Part shown: piece by piece, positions 17,124 through 22,425 of the stretch
How positions within the stretch are numbered: position 1 is the first letter of the stretch
Layout: each line of letters begins with the position of its first letter
Origin: a virus
Reading direction: 5' to 3' (one strand)
Length of the DNA stretch: 22,425 nt
IMG/VR virus record: IMGVR_UViG_3300046524_000262
Location: 1 to 22,425 of that record
Made by a program: the position numbers and the translations under genes
The notes under the pieces: model-generated
Databases searched by the model: none
Told to the model about the DNA's origin: nothing
The model's input: only the letters and a program-made list of their open reading frames with translations

Positions 17124-18061
17124 TCCGCCGCACCGTGGAGCGCCAGTTTCCCGAGCTGACCGGTGGTTATCACCTGCCGCGTTTTGGCCGAGTCACCGGT
17201 ATCGCGGACGCACCTGCCAGCGCCGGGATCTGCGACGACTTCCGGCCGCGCTTTGCGGTCGACGTCGAGGTGCTGAGCCCGGATGGTGAGGCTGACGCCT
17301 CTCTGCCGATCCTGGCCGGCGTGCCACTGCCCATGCCTATGGGTGGGGACGAGATGGGTTTTTTTGCCTTTCCGGACGAAGGCACGATGGTGGTGGTGTG
17401 CTTTGCCTACGGCCTGCCGCACAAACCCTATATCCAAACCATCCTGCCGCACGGCCTGAGCCTGCCCAAGGTGCCAAAAGGCGACCAGGTCTGGCAGCAC
17501 AGCGAGTTGGCCCAGCAACGTGTCGAGGCCAACGGTAACTGGCTGCGCTCGACAGATGCCCGGATCCGCGACGAGTCGATCGACCGCGAGGTCCAGAGCC
17601 TCACCAACAGTGAGAAGCACCAGACCAGCACCGTGGAGGTGGACAACCATTCCACCGAATCGGTGGGGGGCACCAAGACGATCGAGGCCCTGGGCGCGTT
17701 GAAGCTGTTGTCGGGCGGATCCGCAAGCCTTGCCGCCATCGATGACCTACACCAGGCCACCGGCCGGGATCTCAACCTGGTGATCGGTCGCAAGCTGAAC
17801 ACAGCTGTCGGTGGCGATTTGCTCGAGCGGATCCAGGGGGCCCGAAAGAGCGTGGCCCCCACGACCTGGCTCGGCTCCGAGAGCGTGAACGTGCTCCAGG
17901 TGCTGTGCGACCTGATCGACCTGGTCATCCAGATGAACACCGATATCGCGGGCCACACGCATGGCTCCAGCCCGGTGCCTTCCAACGCGGCGAACTTCGC
18001 CGGACACGCCGGTACCGGCGCACTACTTACTGGGCAACTGAAGCCCATCACGGGAGCATGA
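17111..18061 (+). CDS. Baseplate spike protein, gpV/gp45-like
   Basis: This 316-residue protein fits the contractile-tail spike. An N-terminal OB-fold part (about 20-130) includes FGRVTGIADAPASAG and FFAFPDEGTMVVVCFAYG. Then come the beta-helix-like repeats with NHSTESVGGTKTIEALGALK (about 178-197), and a C-terminal HTHG (H282, H284) that matches the HxH iron-binding motif of P2 gpV-type tips. The tip pierces the outer membrane after sheath contraction. I chose ATG 17111, inside the hub gene, over the longer open frame because the upstream part overlaps the hub coding region. It ends with one base before the next TTG. Confidence 0.85.
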   Translation: MEEVIRRTVERQFPELTGGYHLPRFGRVTGIADAPASAGICDDFRPRFAVDVEVLSPDGEADASLPILAGVPLPMPMGGDEMGFFAFPDEGTMVVVCFAYGLPHKPYIQTILPHGLSLPKVPKGDQVWQHSELAQQRVEANGNWLRSTDARIRDESIDREVQSLTNSEKHQTSTVEVDNHSTESVGGTKTIEALGALKLLSGGSASLAAIDDLHQATGRDLNLVIGRKLNTAVGGDLLERIQGARKSVAPTTWLGSESVNVLQVLCDLIDLVIQMNTDIAGHTHGSSPVPSNAANFAGHAGTGALLTGQLKPITGA

Positions 18062-18062
18062 T

Positions 18063-21000
18063 TTGGAACTGAAGAACTTCTTTGCTCAGGATGACCAGGG
18101 CAACCGTCTGCCAGGCGCTACCTGTTACCTCTATCAACGGGGGACGGAGAGCCTGGTGGCCGGCTTGGTGCGGGTTAACGGGACTATGTTGCCGAACCCC
18201 TTCGTTACCGATGAGTCAGGGCTGGCGCAGTTCGCCGCGGCAAATGGGTTGTACGACCTGAGAGTGACGACACCCACCCGCGATCTGCGCATTCCAATTC
18301 AATTCAATGATGTGGGTGAGAACGTCGCCGCCGCCCAACTGGCAGCTGTCCAGGCAGAGTCCGCCCGTGACGCGGCTCAACTCAGTGCCGGTGTCTACCC
18401 GACGATTGCTGCTGGTCTGGCAGCAACATCCAACGGCAACTATTTCACTGTGCCGAGTGCTGAAGCTGATGAGTTTTTGATTCTGTATAAAAACTCGAGC
18501 AATGTAGCAATCGAAACAAAGCGTTATCCCAACACCAAGGCCGTGAGTGATGCACTGAGTTCGACGGTGCAATCCTTCACCACGGCAGCGGCGATGCGAG
18601 CGAACCTAAAACTCGCCCAAGGGCTGAGCGCCATCGTCACCAATGACCCGGACCCCTTGAACAATGGTTGGTATACAAAAGTTGGGGCGCCTAACACCGG
18701 TAGTTGGTCGCCATTCCCCGATCAACCCACCACCACAAGTGCGCTCAACGTTGCAGAGTTGGCAGCTGCCTCAGCGGCGGTAACAACTGACCTCACCTTT
18801 TCATCGACCTGGTCCGCTGATGCAAACAATGGGGGAGTGGTAACCCATCGTTATGGTCGGCCCAGCGGTATAAGAGTGCCTGCAGCTTCCAATGGCTACC
18901 TCACCTACTTAACCGCGATGTTTGCGCCCGCCAATGTTGGTATTGCCAACTTGGTCGGATCAACAGTGCAAGCAGTCATCACCGGACGGCTAACAGGCGA
19001 CTTCGGTGGACTGATCACCCTACGTTCGGATCGAGCTTTTCGAGCGGTACGTCCTAGCGGCACAGTCAACGTTGGGCGAGTTGTCAGCGAGACCTACGCC
19101 TCTGGCACATTCAAACGTGTCGTGCAGTACACCGTCACTGCCGAAGATACCCAGCTCGGCATCATCCTCAGTGCTGCCAATGGCCCGGTGGCTACTGCGA
19201 CAAGCACATTGGTGGTTGATCGGGTGTCGTTCGGTGTCGTCGCTGCCGCGCAAAGAATGACGCCCTACAGCGCGGCAAACGTTGAACGCTCCAAGTTGTT
19301 CAATGAGGTCAATGCCAGTGCTGGTCTGTCTTGGCGCTGGCAGCCTGCGACATTCGATAGCGGCTACGCGAGTTTTCTGAATGGCGCGATCGCCGTTCCC
19401 TTGGGGGCAACCGCTCCGAACCTTGCCGGCATGCAGATCCCCGTCGGTATGTCCGGTGCCGGCTCTTACTTTTATAACCTGATGAAGCTGGACGCTGACC
19501 AGGTCAAAGCCCTGGCCGGCAGCACCGTCCGACTGGTCGCAAAATTCACGGCGACCGCCGACGCGCTTGATCTGCTGGATCTTCAGTTCGTGCCTGGCAT
19601 GAGAGCGGCCCGCGGTGCTGCCGACTCGGTGACGGTAGACGCCAAACTGGTCGAGCTGACTCAAGATGGTCTGATCATCACCAAGGTCGTGGACTATGTG
19701 GTCGACGCAACGGACGTGGCCTGGGCGGTAAATTTGGGCGTTCACGCCAACGCAGTGCAGGTATCCCAGGCCATCACGCTGCAGTTCAAGTCGCTGACCT
19801 GGTCCGTCGGGGAAAGTGGTCAGGCAAATAAACGAGCGGCCGACGTGGCCCTCACTGCCCGCTTTGCCGAGTTGGTCAAACCAGTCGATCAGAAGATGGA
19901 TGCCCAGTCCGCAGCGCTAAGAATCAGTTCTGGCGATGTATTGGGGCGAGCCGTGGTTACAGGCTCGGGCGACGGCAATGGTGCCGTGCTGGCCCGTGAA
20001 AACGGGGTCATCGTCGGTTTTGATATTCCGGCGGGGCGAACCGGCGCCGGTGTCTATAACAGGGTGTTGATCCCATTCGATGCGGCCACCCGGGCCGCAA
20101 TCGTCGGCAAGACGATTCGTATGACCCTCGAGGCTGATGTCAGCGCAACCTTTGCAGTGGACAAGTTGCTGCGAAAGGATCGCGCCATCTATGTTGATGG
20201 TGTCATTGGTAACGTTGGCACGCTGGTCAGCGAGACATTCAAAGGGACGCGCTATACCCGAGTTGTTGAATACCTGGTGGCAGAAGGTGCGGTGACCTTT
20301 GGTCCAGTTGTGAGTTATGTTGGGGTAGCTGTATCGGCGAATGCCAATAGCTTTCGCCTACGCTCCTTACGCTGGCAAGTTGCCGAAGTTAACGGTGACG
20401 GCCAGTCCGCCCAGGACTTCATGTTCGAGCGTCGAATGGCATCACAATCAATTGGCGTCAGCCCAAGTGACAATGTCACCGGAGCACTAAAGGTTTCTGG
20501 CTCCAAACTCGACACCACGTCAGTAATTGGTTTCTCGCCGATTATTCAGCCCTACAGCGTCAGCAAGTTGGGCGGTGTGGTTAACACCATCGAGCAAGTG
20601 GTAGCCATTGATCCACCAGCCACTGAGCAGGTAACCGCTTTTGAGATCTCACTGATCTACGCAACTGCGACCGCAACCGTTCCAGGGGCTCGTCTTCCTC
20701 ATCAATACACCAGCGCGCGCGTGGTCAAGCGGGTTTCGGATGGCGTCGAGCTGGTTGAAGGTGTGGACTATGCGGTCAAACCCAACACTTGCTACATCTA
20801 CGGGCTCAAGGATATTGCCAGTACGCCGTGCTTGATCACGTACACCGGCCACCTACATCGTTATGACCTGGTATCCCTGAACCTGACTACTGGCGTACTG
20901 GTGGTCACCAAAGGGACCGGTCGGGCTATTGATCCAGAGGAATACAAACCCGCCCTGCCGGTAGGCCATGTGAGGCTGAACGAGCTCTATGTTTACCCCG

Positions 21001-21863
21001 CTGGTGTGGATGTCTTGCAAACCTGGCGCTACCGAGAGCTGCGCGATCAGTTGGCGGGCCAAGCTTACGATGAATGGCTCACCTACTGCCGTTCGGTGCT
21101 TCCAAAGACAATGGCCAAGCTGCGCCGTGGCCAGCGCATCAAGCTGATCGGGTACGGCTCCAGCAGCGTGGACATGGGGGGCGGTGCTCTCTATCCGCTG
21201 GAGCCTAATAGAAACCGAGACCTCACATCGTTCTTTGACCGGATCCCGGCGGACACTCGGGCGAAGTATCCGACCTTCAACAACACCGATCCTGACTTCG
21301 CCTGGTCGAGCGCATCCAACCACATCAAGTATGGCTTCATGTGGCAGCTGATCGGCGCCATGCGCGAACGCTGGGGTGCAGACGTTGAGTACCGCAACTG
21401 GGGGGTCGGAGCGACGACGTCGGCCGCTACGATCGAGAACGGCTCGATGAACGGGGCTTACCCCGATCGGCTCAATGCCATGTTGGCGGATCAGGGTGAC
21501 TTGATGGTTCTGGCTTTCGCCAATGGCCTGGGCGGCGACTGGTGGTACAGCACACACCGAACCATCATTGAGGCGTTCAAGGCCCAAGGCGGCGAGGTCA
21601 TTGTGCTGACGTCCCCACGGCTGAACATCTATGGGGAGGGGAGTGTAGGGGACACTACCTGGAAGAAGTCCCACGATGACCTGATTCGGGTTGCACTGGA
21701 CACTGGCTGCGCCTACGTGCCCACCAACCTGATCGAAGGCCCAGGCCGTGAGGGGAACACTGGCTTAAGCCACCGGAACTTGACCAATGCAAACCTCTAC
21801 AACCACGGTGGGCCCATCCAGCTGGGCAACACCGGCAAGTTGATGGCCATGATCATTCCATAA
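18063..21863 (+). CDS. Large second tail fibre / receptor-binding protein with SGNH-hydrolase-like C-terminus
   Basis: This 1266-residue protein, the largest here, starts at TTG 18063 with GGGAG 6 bases upstream; the ATG at 18058 runs into a stop at once. N-terminal residues 1-100 (NFFAQDDQGNRLPGATCYLY, then NPFVTDESGLAQFAAANGLYDL) resemble the attachment domain of Pseudomonas fibres. Three diverged copies of a ~150-residue beta module lie at about 244-400, 422-586 and 623-778. A linker/beta region (about 800-1000) leads to an SGNH/GDSL-like domain (about 1023-1266) with GSS (S1034 as nucleophile), NWGVGATTS, N1154 in FANG and a histidine at 1248. Such domains deacetylate surface polysaccharide in other phages. 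The block V D-x-x-H is unclear, so activity is uncertain. The terminator follows 100 bases later. Confidence 0.85.
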   Translation: MELKNFFAQDDQGNRLPGATCYLYQRGTESLVAGLVRVNGTMLPNPFVTDESGLAQFAAANGLYDLRVTTPTRDLRIPIQFNDVGENVAAAQLAAVQAESARDAAQLSAGVYPTIAAGLAATSNGNYFTVPSAEADEFLILYKNSSNVAIETKRYPNTKAVSDALSSTVQSFTTAAAMRANLKLAQGLSAIVTNDPDPLNNGWYTKVGAPNTGSWSPFPDQPTTTSALNVAELAAASAAVTTDLTFSSTWSADANNGGVVTHRYGRPSGIRVPAASNGYLTYLTAMFAPANVGIANLVGSTVQAVITGRLTGDFGGLITLRSDRAFRAVRPSGTVNVGRVVSETYASGTFKRVVQYTVTAEDTQLGIILSAANGPVATATSTLVVDRVSFGVVAAAQRMTPYSAANVERSKLFNEVNASAGLSWRWQPATFDSGYASFLNGAIAVPLGATAPNLAGMQIPVGMSGAGSYFYNLMKLDADQVKALAGSTVRLVAKFTATADALDLLDLQFVPGMRAARGAADSVTVDAKLVELTQDGLIITKVVDYVVDATDVAWAVNLGVHANAVQVSQAITLQFKSLTWSVGESGQANKRAADVALTARFAELVKPVDQKMDAQSAALRISSGDVLGRAVVTGSGDGNGAVLARENGVIVGFDIPAGRTGAGVYNRVLIPFDAATRAAIVGKTIRMTLEADVSATFAVDKLLRKDRAIYVDGVIGNVGTLVSETFKGTRYTRVVEYLVAEGAVTFGPVVSYVGVAVSANANSFRLRSLRWQVAEVNGDGQSAQDFMFERRMASQSIGVSPSDNVTGALKVSGSKLDTTSVIGFSPIIQPYSVSKLGGVVNTIEQVVAIDPPATEQVTAFEISLIYATATATVPGARLPHQYTSARVVKRVSDGVELVEGVDYAVKPNTCYIYGLKDIASTPCLITYTGHLHRYDLVSLNLTTGVLVVTKGTGRAIDPEEYKPALPVGHVRLNELYVYPAGVDVLQTWRYRELRDQLAGQAYDEWLTYCRSVLPKTMAKLRRGQRIKLIGYGSSSVDMGGGALYPLEPNRNRDLTSFFDRIPADTRAKYPTFNNTDPDFAWSSASNHIKYGFMWQLIGAMRERWGADVEYRNWGVGATTSAATIENGSMNGAYPDRLNAMLADQGDLMVLAFANGLGGDWWYSTHRTIIEAFKAQGGEVIVLTSPRLNIYGEGSVGDTTWKKSHDDLIRVALDTGCAYVPTNLIEGPGREGNTGLSHRNLTNANLYNHGGPIQLGNTGKLMAMIIP
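18792..20395 (+). repeat. Three diverged protein-level module copies in the large fibre gene
   Basis: Modules at about 18792-19260, 19326-19820 and 19930-20395 share the order: (A/N)-x-V/A-G-S/K-T-V/I ... V-S-E-T or V-E-L-T-Q ... V/I-V-x-Y-x-V ... F/L-x-x-L-x-W. For example LVGSTVQAVITG, LAGSTVRLVAKF and IVGKTIRMTLEA; then FKRVVQYTV, ITKVVDYVV and YTRVVEYLV. DNA identity is low, so the duplication is old or the copies are under diversifying change. Confidence 0.75.
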
Positions 21864-22035: not shown

Positions 22036-22425
22036 TCAAAGTTTTATTTTATCAAGTTCGTAGTGGCCGATCACATTGTCAGCGCGGTCATGGCGGGCCT
22101 GATAAAACTTGAAGGAGTCCCGATTGTTTTCAATGCAAAGCTTTTTAATAATTTTCATTATTGCAATTTTTTCGCTATCTGGAGTTCTGATTCCGAATAT
22201 TATGCCTTCCAAGTTTTCAAATTGGTACTTCAAAGTTCGGTCTGATGCTGCCTGTAGGTTATATGAACTCGGGTGAAGCACGAGTCTATATTCGTTCTCG
22301 TCTTTCCATACCTTAAGCTTTGAGGTGGTAGCATCATAAAATGGCTTCCAGTGTGCATCTCTTGATTCATCATCTAGGGTACTAAGCCAGTGCCCAGATT
22401 CACTAATATTTCCAGCTTCGTCCCT
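22036..22425 (-). CDS. DUF2971-like protein, C-terminal 129 residues, 5' end off the window
   Basis: The minus-strand frame is open from the right edge to TGA at 22036: 129 residues with no stop, so the start lies beyond the window. An internal GTG near 22281 is not needed. Visible text includes KVWKDENEYRLVL, LKYQFENLEGIIFGIRT and IKKLC, then FKFYQARHDRA. This fits the C-terminal part of DUF2971, whose members have an aromatic/charged xENEYR-like motif followed by a hydrophobic LxxIIFG segment; the match is from memory. The DNA is clearly more AT-rich than the late operon, with many Lys/Asn/Ile codons, suggesting separate origin. It converges on the late operon. It may be a cargo gene of the phage or flanking DNA. 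Some DUF2971 genes occur in defence-rich regions, but no function is shown here. Confidence 0.72.
   Translation of the reverse strand, partial: RDEAGNISESGHWLSTLDDESRDAHWKPFYDATTSKLKVWKDENEYRLVLHPSSYNLQAASDRTLKYQFENLEGIIFGIRTPDSEKIAIMKIIKKLCIENNRDSFKFYQARHDRADNVIGHYELDKIKL

Follow-up and report, generated by a model that had tools for sequence, protein, structure and literature searches.

It is becoming apparent that host-range enzymes of the SGNH type are common at the fibre tips of temperate phages (PMC13123978). The same source reports gp63.1, a tailspike of Escherichia phage G7C (4qnl), to be an O-antigen deacetylase and two Klebsiella prophage SGNH fibres, 164_08-KL2 and 174_38-KL55, to be esterases on p-nitrophenyl acetate. 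Two further SGNH enzymes are useful for comparison: the mannan esterase CEX (6hfz, 6hh9), which is active by the title of entry 6hfz, and the Streptomyces rimosus lipase SrL, an extracellular lipase without the block V Asp. As described in excerpts of PMC10779480, Ala at Ser10, Asn82 or His216 abolishes SrL activity, and activity persists in the Asn213Ala variant and in Gly54Ala, the latter losing about 40% on one substrate. Excerpts of PMC9487903 and PMC10779480 describe the block V Asp as dispensable in some SGNH members, and those of PMC9487903 also describe Ser-His dyads for CE2 esterases.

The window analyzed here is a stretch of viral DNA of 22,425 nucleotides (IMGVR_UViG_3300046524_000262), in which the last ~267 of the 1266 residues of a tail fibre form an SGNH-type domain. 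This is a known kind of domain in a variant that standard libraries miss, and no earlier description of this tip, or of the clade of close relatives that share it, was found in the literature searched. The likeness to G7C gp63.1 lies in an SGNH fold within a phage adhesin at 12% identity, and the G7C domain lies inside its chain (residues 251-491 of 847), whereas that of the window is the C-terminal tip. In PMC13123978, 164_08-KL2 and 174_38-KL55 are fibres of temperate phages with the SGNH domain toward the C-terminus, as in the window, to which we liken them by fold; SrL is likened by description. CEX gives both the best structural and the best profile match, but it is a two-domain esterase and no phage fibre. 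By sequence, we compared the window tip with fibre tips from Klebsiella, Caulobacter and Acinetobacter sources (P0002, P0003 and P0007; 29-33% identity over 88-99% of the query), which have the Ser, Asn and His aligned with those of the window and likewise lack an Asp at His-3 (P0002 and P0007 also have the neck in common) but, unlike the window, retain GDS, FGMN[DE] and NHPG.

Genomic setting of the fibre gene

All six phage records that matched the window in a nucleotide search are Pseudomonas phages, and the host is therefore inferred to be Pseudomonas-type. The best match, UFJF_PfPro of P. fluorescens (Peduoviridae), is 75% identical over half of the window and stops at base 17781, upstream of the fibre open reading frame (ORF; Table 1). 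The late gene cluster is P2-like, and the gene preceding the fibre ORF is one that we take to be gpD-like. Residues 1-229 of the fibre, presumed to be its attachment part, are related to segments on three other contigs: L023 (55% identity over 229 amino acids), L004 (62% over 165) and L003 (61% over 175). Toward the other end, the neck before the tip is 49% identical over 117 amino acids to that of L022, and residues 838-992 are about 32% identical over 159 amino acids to the fibre of Klebsiella phage Kp4852-3.

Table 1. Features of the tail fibre gene, with positions in the window
Feature	Residues	Position	Strand	Remarks
Tail fibre ORF		18063..21863	+	1266 aa from a TTG start; final gene in the tail cluster
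N-terminal segment	1-229	18063..18749	+	Related segment under other tips in L023, L004 and L003
Neck before the tip	876-992	20688..21038	+	Common to canonical relatives
SGNH-type domain	about 1000-1266	21060..21863	+	From AlphaFold2 model, structural matches and canonical profile
Block I, GYGSSSVDM	1030-1038	21150..21176	+	Candidate nucleophile S1034 at 21162-21164
Block II, NWGVGATTS	1112-1120	21396..21422	+	A1117 at the oxyanion Gly position
Block III, FANG	1152-1155	21516..21527	+	Lacks one residue of the canonical FGMN[DE]; N1154 aligns with the oxyanion Asn
Block V, NHGG	1247-1250	21801..21812	+	Candidate base H1248 (21804-21806); no Asp at His-3

Identity and fold of the tip

The window domain matched no Pfam, PHROG or NCBIfam model. 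Lipase_GDSL_2 (PF13472) gave no match at E up to 1, its curated cut-off not being reached; NCBIfam returned nothing at E up to 1; direct family searches with the fibre and the domain yielded sub-threshold matches only (SCP2, E 0.062; phrog_33491, E 0.29); and a single-sequence PDB search returned one chain, at E 0.38. Translated searches led further, to five Caulobacter phages, Kp4852-3 and an Acinetobacter plasmid with phage-like genes, at 29-33% identity to the domain. Two of three such relatives pass the Lipase_GDSL_2 cut-off (P0002, 5.8e-13; P0007, 4.5e-14) and P0003 falls below it (3.6e-5); P0004-P0006 gave no match to this model at E up to 10. When viral contigs were scanned with alignment A1, 27 loci were found. 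In the 22-row alignment A4, which omits L009, L011, L012, L014, L020, L021, L026, L032, L038 and the public-record proteins, a match to Lipase_GDSL_2 at E up to 1 was seen in 16 rows (best 1.9e-13), but not in that of the window; the profile of all 22 rows matches the solved SGNH enzymes CEX (6hfz, 1.7e-7) and TesA (9.5e-5). Scored against a profile built from 17 canonical relatives, the window domain reaches 201 bits, and the blocks of the profile fall on all four in question, with an E-value of 6e-63 that comes from a search of six sequences only, the relatives having been collected starting from the window. Two checks are independent of the window's own motifs, namely the Pfam match of the relatives and the predicted fold set against solved SGNH enzymes. 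Among species-representative genomes, searches with the window alone and with the clade alignment confirmed no relative, which given their narrow patterns is weak evidence of absence.

The AlphaFold2 model of residues 993-1266 (pLDDT 83.6, pTM 0.87) has the predicted three-layer alpha/beta SGNH fold. The best 50 solved structures listed have Z scores of 14.8-17.8, with SGNH/GDSL esterases at their head and G7C gp63.1 among them. VIA-align placed 6hfz at Z 17.8 (rmsd 2.8, 197 residues) and G7C gp63.1 at 16.4 (rmsd 3.1, 204 residues), with 9d81 at 16.6, 9d84 at 16.5 and 9lna at 14.9. Foldseek ranked a Shigella phage B2 protein first, followed by the acetyl xylan esterase Axe2; in the viral library, the Caulobacter phage Kronos fibre came first (E 9.6e-19), and several of the 44 matches at E up to 0.001 carry the names SGNH, esterase or tail spike. 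A model of the canonical L022 tip, predicted from the same 22 rows, reaches somewhat higher Z scores (up to 19.2) than that of the window (up to 17.8). The approach to block V in the window model (model residues 239-250, i.e., 1231-1242) has a pLDDT under 50, which we rejected as a sign of decay because L022 dips similarly (residues 224-232 under 50).

A first-pass annotation of this DNA had read an SGNH-like domain at the fibre tip and had named a fold other than SGNH as contrary to that reading. The profile match, the membership of the relatives in Lipase_GDSL_2 and the modelled fold all agree with the SGNH assignment, and the motifs GSS, NWGVGATTS, FANG and YNHGGP lie where they had been placed (residue 1023 starts at 21129). 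Of the proposed extent, residues 1023-1266, the end holds and the start moves upstream, nearer to residue 1000 (about 21060).

Catalytic blocks of the window clade

To compare active sites, we aligned 30 rows with MAFFT, seven from the window clade and 23 canonical, leaving out L021 (broken frame) and L038 (partial). Several of the canonical rows are near-copies (e.g., L009, L010, L011, L026 and Kp4852-3), and the seven clade rows represent one common stem, not seven independent events. Seven residues are invariant in all 30 rows: S1034, D1053, N1112, R1136, N1154, W1200 and H1248. By alignment, S1034 would take the place of the nucleophile, H1248 that of the base and N1154 that of the oxyanion Asn; the earlier choice of S1034 and H1248 as catalytic candidates is thus borne out by homology, in both the profile and the 30-row alignment.

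The blocks around these residues have changed. At position 1033 in block I, all clade rows have Ser, and the canonical rows have Asp (22) or Thr (1), giving GSS in 7/7 against GDS in 22/23; under a strict Gly-Asp-Ser motif the window tip falls outside the GDSL family. CEX, in which 6hfz has GGS as aligned, is like the window without the GDS Asp. Four positions from there, at 1037, every clade row has Asp and none of the 23 canonical rows does, the canonical residue being Ala. Block II had been correctly located, with one correction: the position aligned with the TesA Gly, which we take to be the oxyanion residue of TesA, is Ala1117. This Ala occurs in the window and W2 only (2/30), Gly being present in six of the seven clade rows and 22 of the 23 canonical ones. 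The window thus appears to carry three of the residues of the strict four-residue SGNH signature, and because its block II Gly is Ala we class the domain as a divergent homologue. As an oxyanion residue A1117 would be tolerable, since the backbone NH can come from Ala and SrL Gly54Ala is active in the excerpts of PMC10779480.

Block III shows Gly to Ala at 1153 and a deletion of the next residue (canonical Met) in all seven clade rows, together with Gly at 1155, where canonical rows have Asp or Glu; the corresponding FSVND of CEX differs in having no deletion. N1154 falls opposite the canonical Asn, directly after a one-residue gap, in the alignments of MAFFT, HMMER and hhalign alike. A gapless alternative, with N1154 opposite Met and Gly opposite Asn, is less favoured, as all three programs choose the gap that sets Asn on Asn.

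In block V, position 1249 is Gly throughout the clade, and Pro (20), Ala (2) or Asp (1) in the canonical rows. The first-pass annotation had worried that no D-x-x-H was obvious. The motif is indeed absent, but an Asp at His-3 is missing from 30/30 rows (7/23 canonical rows have one at His-4). The missing Asp therefore reads as a family trait and not as a loss in the window protein, and it is uninformative on decay.

Across the domain, 53 columns reach a conservation of 80% or more among 17 canonical rows, of which the clade keeps 35 and changes 18; it retains 12 of the 14 columns that are invariant across those 17 rows. By hand count, the changes are not enriched in the catalytic blocks (8/24 columns, versus 10/29 elsewhere). 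For these column counts, as for the tree and the profile, L009, L011, L020, L026, L030, L032 and Kp4852-3 were dropped in addition to L021 and L038.

Conservation and exchange of the tip

The tip is under purifying selection, with a dN/dS of 0.000-0.109 across those clade pairs (18 of 21) that allow an estimate. The values are rough, as dS exceeds 1 in 17 of these 18 pairs and is undefined in the other three; the L018 and L020 proteins are identical. Together with the 67 residues before it, the tip forms the best conserved bins along the fibre: it is 78-86% identical to five relatives, the preceding 67 residues are 72-85% identical, and the remaining bins range from 28 to 75%. In the tree, the clade is one side of a fully supported branch, with L022 as the nearest canonical row. 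Its stem carries 1.28 changes per column, at a point where the program warns of long branches meeting; other stems in the tree reach 1.0.

Sister phages carry different tips on related fibre N-termini. L023, with a gpD-like gene 85% identical to that of the window and a fibre N-terminus at 55%, has a canonical member of the family as its tip. L003 (fibre N-terminus 61%; gpD-like gene matching in pieces at 70-77%) has the tip of the window clade. L004 (gpD-like gene 93%, fibre N-terminus 62%) carries a fibre that is shorter and contains, at its C-terminus, GWGSST, NGGQGSES, LGKND and DNVAH, which by eye may be read as SGNH blocks; its match to Lipase_GDSL_2 (E 0.0064) is below the cut-off, so that the Pfam support is weak. 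Sequence similar to this C-terminus occurs in 38 phage records, and several of the 15 listed are annotated as tail fibre or tail protein. If the SGNH reading is right, a GSS block I would coexist in L004 with an intact D-x-x-H. The tip position would so appear to receive SGNH or SGNH-like domains repeatedly, which favours an enzymatic role that the window copy may share.

Within L004:1835-5222, the fibre is followed by a laminin-G-like gene and then by 74 codons that match the final part of the window's tip at 91% identity, probably the scar of a replaced tip. The shaft (window 18753-21038) also occurs together with the tip in L001, L002, L040, L041 and L042, with the shaft 58-66% identical and the N-terminal segment unlike or little like that of the window, and the two may move together as a module.

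Function of the tip

We predict from sequence and model that the window tip is probably a divergent carbohydrate O-acyl esterase of the Ser-His type, still active although its pocket has been remodelled, which would serve as a receptor-binding enzyme. During adsorption it would strip acyl groups (acetyl being the most likely) from a polysaccharide on the host surface, a prediction made by analogy with the Klebsiella prophage SGNH esterase fibres and the G7C deacetylase. The fibre N-terminus presumably anchors to the baseplate, and the tip would bind a surface polysaccharide of the Pseudomonas-type host that bears acyl, most likely acetyl, groups. H1248 would activate S1034 without a block V acid, as a Ser-His dyad; S1034 would attack the ester, with S1034 and A1117 contributing their backbone NH, and N1154 its side chain, to hold the oxyanion; and the acid would be released, the phage gaining a firm or oriented hold. 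Such a dyad is plausible, since SrL works without the block V Asp and dyads are described for CE2 esterases. What the analysis itself shows is homology, the fold class of the model, the kept Ser, Asn and His, purifying selection and the swapping of tips; we infer that the catalytic residues would meet in space, as well as the activity, the substrate and the role in adsorption.

Several lines of evidence count for the predicted esterase: (i) the candidate residues S1034, N1154 and H1248 are kept in 30/30 rows along with N1112, D1053, R1136 and W1200, as are 12 of 14 invariant canonical columns in the clade; (ii) dN/dS is low and the tip is 78-86% identical to five relatives; (iii) sister tips on a related N-terminus are canonical (L023) or SGNH-like (L004); (iv) the modelled fold matches carbohydrate and other SGNH esterases, including G7C gp63.1; and (v) SrL works without the block V Asp, the mannan esterase 6hfz has GGS in block I, and the two Klebsiella prophage SGNH fibres are active esterases. 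Against it count the loss in all seven clade rows of the block I Asp, of a block III residue and its Gly, and of the block V Pro, the change of 18 of 53 well-conserved canonical columns, and, in the window, the missing block II Gly. A binder that uses the old pocket would, moreover, equally show purifying selection and kept residues.

The main rival is an SGNH domain that has lost catalysis and persists as a lectin, its old pocket binding a surface glycan without ester cleavage. The first-pass annotation had named such a binder beside an active deacetylase; we regard it as possible but rather doubtful. It would account for the changes in blocks I, III and V across the clade and for the Ala in the window's block II, as well as for a stem as long as 1.28 changes per column and the strong conservation after it. 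Decay would, however, be expected to cost at least one catalytic residue in seven rows, though these share one stem, and Ser, Asn and His are all kept in 30/30; nor are the changes concentrated in the catalytic blocks (8/24 vs 10/29), and other stems in the tree reach 1.0.

An SGNH lineage with a rebuilt site is unlikely in our estimate. Here the acid of position 1033 would have passed to D1037, the oxyanion loop would be shorter and the His would lack its usual acid, leading either to new catalysis and acyl specificity or to a lectin that uses the catalytic residues as ligand contacts. We give little credence to a changed chemistry or specificity in which the acid would have moved to D1037 beside the nucleophile and the shorter block III loop would open the pocket to a different acyl group or make transfer likelier than hydrolysis: D1037 is confined to the clade (7/7 vs 0/23) together with the loss of the 1033 Asp, and the deletion falls exactly at the oxyanion loop, but gain and loss lie on one stem and so amount to a single event. 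Chance motifs in an unrelated fold are extremely improbable, the lack of any Pfam, PHROG or NCBIfam match and the single PDB chain at E 0.38 being contradicted by the profile, fold and intermediate-sequence results, which refute that reading unless model and alignments are both badly wrong. The question of catalysis now turns on D1037 and the loop of block III.

Because the window domain matches none of Pfam, PHROGs and NCBIfam, surveys built on such models may undercount SGNH tips. The clade also offers a natural test of which SGNH positions tolerate change, with seven rows of a conserved domain in which three of four catalytic blocks are altered, and with sister phages carrying canonical tips on a related N-terminus as natural controls.

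Other observations

The clade tip occurs on three contigs numbered 2728369711, L043 (locus L021), L003 (L017) and L041 (L019), which points to several related prophages within a single genome. L043/L021 has its fibre frame broken in both neck and tip, and L003/L017 has it broken in the shaft, with gpD also matching in pieces, so contig errors are possible. Beyond the fibre, an ORF on the minus strand (22036-22425), open at the window end, has no Pfam match and resembles phrog_1762, of unknown function (E 3.7e-11). On the plus strand, the ORF at 7344-7736 matches Peptidase M15 (Pfam, E 8.1e-14) and the endolysin family phrog_894 (2.3e-25), and lies at about the same place as the UFJF_PfPro gene annotated as lysozyme.
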